Source of the DNA: Paracoccaceae bacterium
GTDB lineage: Bacteria; Pseudomonadota; Alphaproteobacteria; Rhodobacterales; Rhodobacteraceae
Length of the DNA stretch: 32,386 nt
Direction of reading: 5' to 3'
Assembly: GCA_020846995.1 (NCBI GenBank)
Contig: JADLCV010000177.1
Location: 1-32,386 of the forward strand
The position numbers and the translations under genes are program-made. Shown here in pieces: positions 4,786-5,918 of the stretch (its first letter is position 1; every line of letters begins with the position of its first letter). The notes under the pieces were generated by a model. That model saw only the letters and a program-made list of their open reading frames with translations, ran no database searches and was not told where the DNA came from.

Positions 4786-4803
4786 GGCTCTGTTGCACAA
4801 ATC
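4786..4803 (+). repeat. IS5 left terminal inverted repeat
   Basis: GGCTCTGTTGCACAAATC, identical over 18 bases to the reverse complement of the right end at 5901-5918. Similarity continues weakly a few bases inward. Confidence 0.93.
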
Positions 4804-4892
4804 GCCTGATGGCCGAGGTTCCCCTTTCCCCGGACAGACCTATCCCGCGACCTCTGTGAGGGGCGTTCCGAGCGCGGTGAAGCCGTTCAGGA

Positions 4893-4934
4893 TCGAGCAG
4901 GCGAACGCCATCGGTCAAAGAGAGCCTGCGAGGG
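4893..4934 (+). repeat. 42-bp partly palindromic element, copy A
   Basis: This copy begins TCGAGCAGGCGAACGCCA and ends GCCTGCGAGGG. It is 37/42 identical to copy B (5288-5329) read on the opposite strand. GCAGGC near one end is the reverse complement of GCCTGC near the other, so single strands can form a stem. It interrupts the transposase between the codons for 'QVRV' and 'LNGFTALG'. Confidence 0.75.
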
Positions 4935-5287
4935 ACGCGCACCTGGAACTCGGCCACCTGACGGTCGAAGTCGCGTGCGGACAGGCGCTGACCCAGCAGC
5001 CTGACGCAGTGCATCCTGGTCTCGGCCCTGCTTCGGCGGTGGTATCCGTTCCATCGTCGCCAGATGGTTCGACCGACGCGCTTCGATGTGCGCAGGATTT
5101 CGTTGCGGGCGATCGCTCCGGCGGTGTCGGGTTTCCACGGTCTGGCGTTCTTGCGGGGTGGAATGATCGCGGTTGCACCACGGGCCGCGATGGCATCATG
5201 ACATCTGCGGGTGTCGAAGGCACCATCGGCGGTGACGCTGCCGATCTCCTGTTCGGGTGGGATCTGGTCCAGCAACCCGGGCAGCAT

Positions 5288-5329
5288 CCCTCGCAGGCTT
5301 TCTCGAACCGGTGGCGTTCGCCTGCTCGA
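5288..5329 (-). repeat. 42-bp partly palindromic element, copy B
   Basis: On the minus strand it begins TCGAGCAGGCGAACGCCA and ends GCCTGCGAGGG, like copy A but inverted relative to it. It interrupts the transposase after SDIGD, where relatives read on through 'APMLP'. On the transposase strand it is preceded by GACATCGGC repeated in tandem, a possible by-product of insertion. Confidence 0.75.
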
Positions 5330-5900
5330 CGTCGCCGATGTCGCCGATGTCGCTGGTGGTGAGCTCTGCCGCCCGGATTTCCAGGGATTTCTCGTCGATT
5401 CCGATGTGGATCTTGCGCCAGACCCTGCGCTTGGTGGCGCCATGCTTGCGCGCGTTCCACTCGCCTTCGCCCTCGACCTTGATCCCCGTGCTCTCGATCA
5501 AGAGATGCAGGGGACCGTCCGAACCACGATAGGGGATGTTGACCTTCAGGGTCTTCTGCCGTCGCGACAGCGTGCTGAAGTCGGGCACCGCCCGGTCCTG
5601 GCCGATCAGACGCAGCAGGCTCTCGACGAAGCCAGTGGTCTGCCTCAGCGCCATTCCAAACAACACCTTCATCGTCAGGCAGGTCTGAATGGCCGCATCG
5701 CTGTCGTCGGGCCGGCGGCCACGCTTGCCAGTCGGCGCTGCTTCCCAGGTCATGCAGGGATCGAACCAGATCGTCAGCGAGCCACGGCGCTTGAGCGCTT
5801 CGTCATAGGCCGGCCAGTTCCGGGTCTTGCAGGTCGGGGGTGTCGGTCTGCTCATGCCTTCCAGCTACCACGCTGGATTCACGAGATGAATCCCTCACGG

Positions 5901-5918
5901 GATTTGTGCAACAGAGCC
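5901..5918 (-). repeat. IS5 right terminal inverted repeat
   Basis: GATTTGTGCAACAGAGCC, the exact reverse complement of the left end at 4786-4803. It marks the last base of the element and of the lower-GC region. Confidence 0.93.

Follow-up and report, generated by a model that had tools for sequence, protein, structure and literature searches.

A family of tiny palindromic elements nested almost only in transposase genes of Rhodobacteraceae

Introduction

Short palindromic repeats are known mostly from between genes. RPEs, which are approximately 100-150 nt long, are read in frame in proteins that are kept, and byps and the T4 gene 60 gap are hairpin inserts of approximately 30-55 nt in coding genes. 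Recurrent sites in a fixed orientation, often in mobile genes, are also typical of site-specific group II introns and homing introns. ORFs that contain RPEs have been listed (PMC2635572). REPs are marked by a GTAG or CGTC tag, lie mostly outside genes and are linked to RAYT genes (PMC3733652, PMC2817692).

The locus described here lies in a 32,386-nt stretch of DNA from a Paracoccaceae bacterium (GCA_020846995.1, contig JADLCV010000177.1; the whole stretch is hereafter called the window), where a first-pass annotation had noticed that two frame breaks in an IS5 transposase coincide with copies of one 42-bp palindromic sequence. Taken together, the analyses reported below make it probable that these segments represent a mobile palindrome that is neither autonomous nor coding and that is put site-specifically, at the DNA level, into transposases by a putative trans-acting enzyme. 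The literature searched, in which most subscription journals were outside coverage, yielded nothing on transposase-nested palindromes in Rhodobacterales and, as far as it was searched, a family of tiny hairpin mobile DNA that is almost confined to transposase genes is new.

Results and Discussion

Two copies of a 42-nt hairpin element interrupt one IS5 transposase

The host is an IS5-family (ISSpo9-like) insertion sequence on the reverse strand (positions 4786 to 5918), which has terminal inverted repeats (GGCTCTGTTGCACAAAT) at its bounds and aligns over its full length with ISSpo9 (80%). The transposase ORF starts at 5855 (ORF 5196-5855), and its N-terminal part, which runs to the first insert (5330 to 5855, reverse strand; Pfam and alignment), matched DDE_Tnp_1_5 (3.6e-40) and also DDE_Tnp_1 in a Pfam scan. 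The first insert, copy 1 of the element (5288 to 5329, forward strand), is antisense to the transposase and sits at approximately ISSpo9 codon 174. A middle part that is open in one frame (4935 to 5287, reverse strand; ORF list and alignment) separates it from copy 2 (4893 to 4934, reverse strand), which is sense to the transposase and sits at approximately codon 292. The C-terminal end of the transposase (4840 to 4892, reverse strand), the equivalent of LNGFTALG.. in the ISSpo9 alignment, is displaced. The two copies are 37/42 identical and in inverse orientation, exactly as first described, and had covariance-model scores of 64.3 bits (E 1.9e-12) for copy 1 and 63.8 bits for copy 2; they were also recovered independently as a 46-nt inverted repeat that is 87% complementary (E about 2.5e-8 in the window's own genome). 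No Rfam match was found in the window.

Alignment with the intact relatives (ISSpo9 and copies from Rhodobacter sp. CZR27 and Cereibacter azotoformans) showed that these carry neither 42-nt segment, which rules out that the segments are a normal part of this insertion sequence (IS), and that the window IS is approximately 90 nt longer owing to the two inserts. On the coding strand, the intact GGCGATG(CGCCC)ATGCTG reads GGCGACG, 42 nt, ATGCTG in the filled copy at one site, and the intact CGCGT(TGCCG)TCCTG reads CGCGT, 42 nt, TCCTG at the other. At each insert 5 nt were thus exchanged for 42 (net +37) and the reading frame was displaced by one, with no target duplication at either; the earlier description of a few residues replaced and one base added to the frame therefore holds, and the comparison with an intact IS that it had recommended defined the exact insertion points. 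The DSTG motif of the relatives reads ESTG in the window transposase (5482-5496), and because its catalytic aspartate has been lost to E, the host transposase is probably dead anyway. Site 292 is also filled in three other copies in the same genome (C260, C1 and C172) and in another genome, G071. Since C260 has the insert at site 292 only, the two inserts in the window are independent events.

Structure and sequence of the hairpin family

The family was built from a search for the loop pattern followed by covariance models R1 and R2, and the related segments recovered in this way have the same loop and length and different stems. Members are 40-44 nt long, with a variable stem, a conserved 13-nt loop (TCGRACCRRTGGC), a TC/TC internal loop and paired ends, and the hairpin bears the TCGGACCAATGGC loop. 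In these members, which were found by the loop and not by the stem, yet whose first rows were picked by eye as showing the stem, 96% of stem cells were paired, compared to 75.6% in shuffles. Both sides had changed in 30 stem cells, compared to 8.0 in shuffles, and the stem covariation score was 0.50, compared to 0.13 in shuffles, with slid controls far lower. This is a structured palindromic element whose stem is kept by compensatory changes, and the GCAGGC/GCCTGC stem initially seen in the window was confirmed and shows covariation throughout the family. The outermost bases pair across the conserved TC/TC internal loop in CC/GA, GT/AC, GC/GC, AT/AT and CT/AG classes; the ends have the form C-N-N-TCG and CTC-R-N, with the end pairing extending over 2 bp only. 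Stop codons over the six frames number 0.94 per element, compared to 2.12 in shuffled elements.

Distribution across Rhodobacteraceae

The window's own genome contains about 12 copies of the element (R2, E <= 1e-4), and carriers make up about a third of the Rhodobacteraceae genomes sampled (124/394), with 1-16 strong copies per genome. The search for the sequence in related genomes that the first-pass annotation had proposed thus returned many copies, and its reading of the segments as a tiny hairpin element that had entered an IS twice is borne out: neither an intact IS bearing the segments nor a 42-mer limited to the window was found. An exact 37-mer of one subfamily was found in 19 contigs, nearly all of them from genera of Rhodobacterales, and a similar 42-mer in 34 plasmid records, all from Rhodobacterales. 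Outside Rhodobacteraceae, a class-wide sample of 289 genomes contained one carrier only, G555. This genome has three identical copies (L313-L315) of equal score, which suggests a recent transfer with an IS.

Host genes are almost exclusively transposases

Of the 156 distinct copies, which represent 105 loci, nearly all are located within transposase genes, and the IS families that these belong to are unrelated: IS3, IS5, IS21, IS66, IS110, IS256, IS481 and IS630. Pfam analysis of the frames flanking the 105 loci identified rve, DDE_Tnp_1, DDE_Tnp_1_5, HTH_Tnp_1, Transposase_mut, IS66, IstB, IS110, DDE_3 and few others; host peptides read by eye agree with these calls, and 4/6 unclear loci that were re-examined are transposases as well. 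At 40 random positions analysed as a matched control, 25 families were listed, none of them a transposase family. Insertion into a transposase had been considered unusual in the initial description of the window; the reverse was found, as transposases are almost the sole hosts. The few non-IS hosts are a phage/GTA tail gene (GTA_TIM, in genome G340) and a terminase (L097), and both of these inserts are in frame. G340 has two GTA_TIM copies (L225 and L226) that are 88-91% identical and carry the same in-frame element, with a second element in L225.

Elements occur in both orientations relative to their host genes. Among the 72 cases that could be framed confidently, by calls that rest on a codon-usage model, the frame is kept in 21 and shifted in 51; approximately 70% of host IS are frame-broken and approximately 30% gain 12-13 amino acids. 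One might propose from these numbers that the element inserts anywhere and that its bias towards transposases is survivorship in dead or dispensable IS that tolerate it, as frames within IS are not kept and several hosts are decayed (the window copy, C1, C172 and the copies in G009). While part of the bias could be survivorship, intergenic and pseudogene DNA would be equally tolerant, yet contains hardly any copies, and the recurrence of identical sites and orientations (see below) would be left unexplained; survivorship as the full explanation is therefore unlikely.

Some frame-broken hosts have multiplied. Four full-length IS256 copies in G378 are 100% identical, each with a frame break upstream of NPLER..EIKRR, and three IS110 copies on two contigs of G353 are identical and all filled, with none empty. 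Such frame-breaking copies in identical multi-copy IS need either trans-mobilisation by a related transposase or removal of the element at expression; either would explain them, and the picture is mixed. If the element was removed as a mini-intron, or by a translational bypass like that of the byps of yeast mitochondria, host transposases would stay functional. Consistent with this, no element-free IS256 copy was seen in G378, and a single IS3 copy with seven elements in approximately 1 kb (L121, G232:C13, 855-1898; three antisense, then four sense) has an otherwise open ORF. However, dN of this IS3 copy is approximately twice that of intact relatives at equal dS, as if selection was relaxed, and G378 is a draft genome with its IS256 copies at contig ends. 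Moreover, the break in the G353 copies is confined to the C-terminal tail, the window copy lacks the catalytic D of DSTG, both orientations are used, and the tail gene and the terminase are filled in frame, which would be needless for an element that is removed. Removal from RNA is hence disfavoured, and we regard functional hosts maintained by removal at expression as quite unlikely.

Insertions recur at the same sites

Insertions in IS5-like hosts fall at a few ISSpo9 codons (18, 72, 122, 145, 174, 267 and 292), with one orientation per site. Across all hosts, 87/170 insertions are at sites filled in at least 2 genomes, and 62 same-site pairs have the same orientation versus 5 with opposite orientations. 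In a tree of 28 IS5 hosts, 3 changes are needed at site 174, 5 at site 72, 3 at site 122 and 3 at site 18; the three changes at site 174 are forced by well-supported branches, with C267, the closest kin of the window copy, lacking an element there. Within each of two genomes (G071 and G299), elements that are identical or match at 40/42 positions are found at one and the same site in hosts with just approximately 72% identity. The host tree, the orientation pairs and these near-identical elements in diverged hosts favour repeated entry at specific sites over descent. An inheritance of shared sites by IS lineages that have borne the element since an old insertion is very doubtful, even though the element subfamily tracks the site across genomes and the copies at site 292 within the window genome seem to share an ancestor, since the host tree rejects common descent of sites 174 (at least 3 changes), 72 and 122 and since 72%-identical hosts in one genome carry identical elements at the same site. 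It had also been suggested that the inverted pair in the window could invert the segment between the copies; no such inversion was seen, and the orientation at each of these sites is shared by related copies.

Other palindromes were observed at two of these sites. An IS5 on a plasmid of Paracoccus sp. MC1862 (L027) has a different palindrome, GGGCAAACAGTCCCCCGGACTGTTTGC, at site 174, matching window positions 5288-5329. In G009, IS5 copies that also bear the present element (L249-L252) have an unrelated palindrome, GGGCATTGCATTGCAAGACCCTGCCGGTCAACGG, at the DSTG site (122), and L249 has segments similar to this palindrome further along. Unrelated palindromes at sites 174 and 122 suggest that these sites have special properties of their own.

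Insertion replaces 4-6 nt of the target

Comparison with intact relatives at 17 sites, seven of them in the IS3 copy L121 (versus L204-L206) and one in IS256 (G378 versus Sulfitobacter), showed that 4-6 nt were replaced (net +36 to +39) and none duplicated. Paracoccus liaowanqingii 2251 carries both an empty and a filled site in near-identical DNA, as expected for a mobile element: its two IS21 istA genes have flanks that are 99.75% and 99.79% identical, and where the empty gene reads GGCACCGCG-GTGG-TGCCGG, 40 nt of element replace GTGG in the filled one. At +1, directly after the element, 99% of cases have a pyrimidine, and +2 shows a weak C; no stronger target motif was found. The idea that element arms serve as an address complementary to the target flanks was not borne out (12 tests, largest |z| 2.6). 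The P. liaowanqingii site prompted the idea that targets are small palindromes, which was rejected for 17 empty sites (mean rank 0.56, KS p 0.69).

A possible mechanism and its implications

For the preferred reading, site-specific insertion at the DNA level, we infer that a putative trans-acting enzyme would recognise the loop by its conservation and the stem by its shape, would probably handle the hairpin as single-stranded DNA and would deliver it to favoured positions within transposase genes. Insertion swaps 4-6 bp of the target for the element without duplication, usually leaving the host IS frame-broken or lengthened by 12-13 amino acids, and the IS that holds the element could then carry it between replicons and genomes. 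Since the host IS is usually broken or lengthened in this way, the element probably both parasitises insertion sequences and curbs them. A stronger proposal, a dedicated site-specific ("homing") hairpin system against insertion sequences, in which a putative enzyme targets fixed positions in many unrelated transposase genes and the element either parasitises insertion sequences or restrains transposition throughout the genome, is put forward only tentatively.

A transposase-confined family that hits recurrent positions in unrelated IS families and exchanges 4-6 bp for a 40-nt hairpin points to a new chemistry of insertion. It also points to an additional level at which insertion sequences across Rhodobacterales are controlled or parasitised in a nested manner. 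In addition, many transposases annotated as frameshifted in this order are explained by the element. With a filled and an empty site in the same strain and culturable hosts (Paracoccus, Roseivivax and Leisingera), the system is testable.

Comparison with known systems

The initial likening of the element to REPs or RPEs holds only loosely, in that this is a repeat that is short and palindromic. Like REPs and REPINs, which are 20-40 nt palindromes, it is non-autonomous and mobile and has variable stems, but its copies are inside transposases and number only 1-16 strong copies per genome. RAYT (Y1 transposase, PF01797) is absent from the window's own genome (G000) and from 22/24 element-rich genomes, with positive controls in E. 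coli and others, and no GTAG or CGTC tag was found at the element ends. A RAYT-driven REP is rejected, as PF01797 is absent from most carriers and the element is neither extragenic nor high-copy and has no tag. RPEs are likewise mobile palindromes within protein-coding genes of alphaproteobacteria; however, the present element is only 40-45 nt long, has transposases as hosts and mostly breaks their frames (51/72 shifted). An RPE is rejected on this length, on the absence of an Rfam match in the window and on a frame that is kept in only 21/72 cases and, as a rule, only in the few non-IS hosts.

The element resembles MITEs in being short, non-coding and probably moved in trans, but a MITE is rejected on target site duplication, as 4-6 bp of target are replaced here and none duplicated. 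Byps and the T4 gene 60 gap are similar as hairpin inserts in coding genes, whereas the present element occurs in both orientations and is in frame in non-IS genes. With group II and homing introns it shares recurrent sites of fixed orientation, while differing from them as an element of only 42 nt that has neither an intron core nor an ORF and whose insertion costs the target some of its bases.
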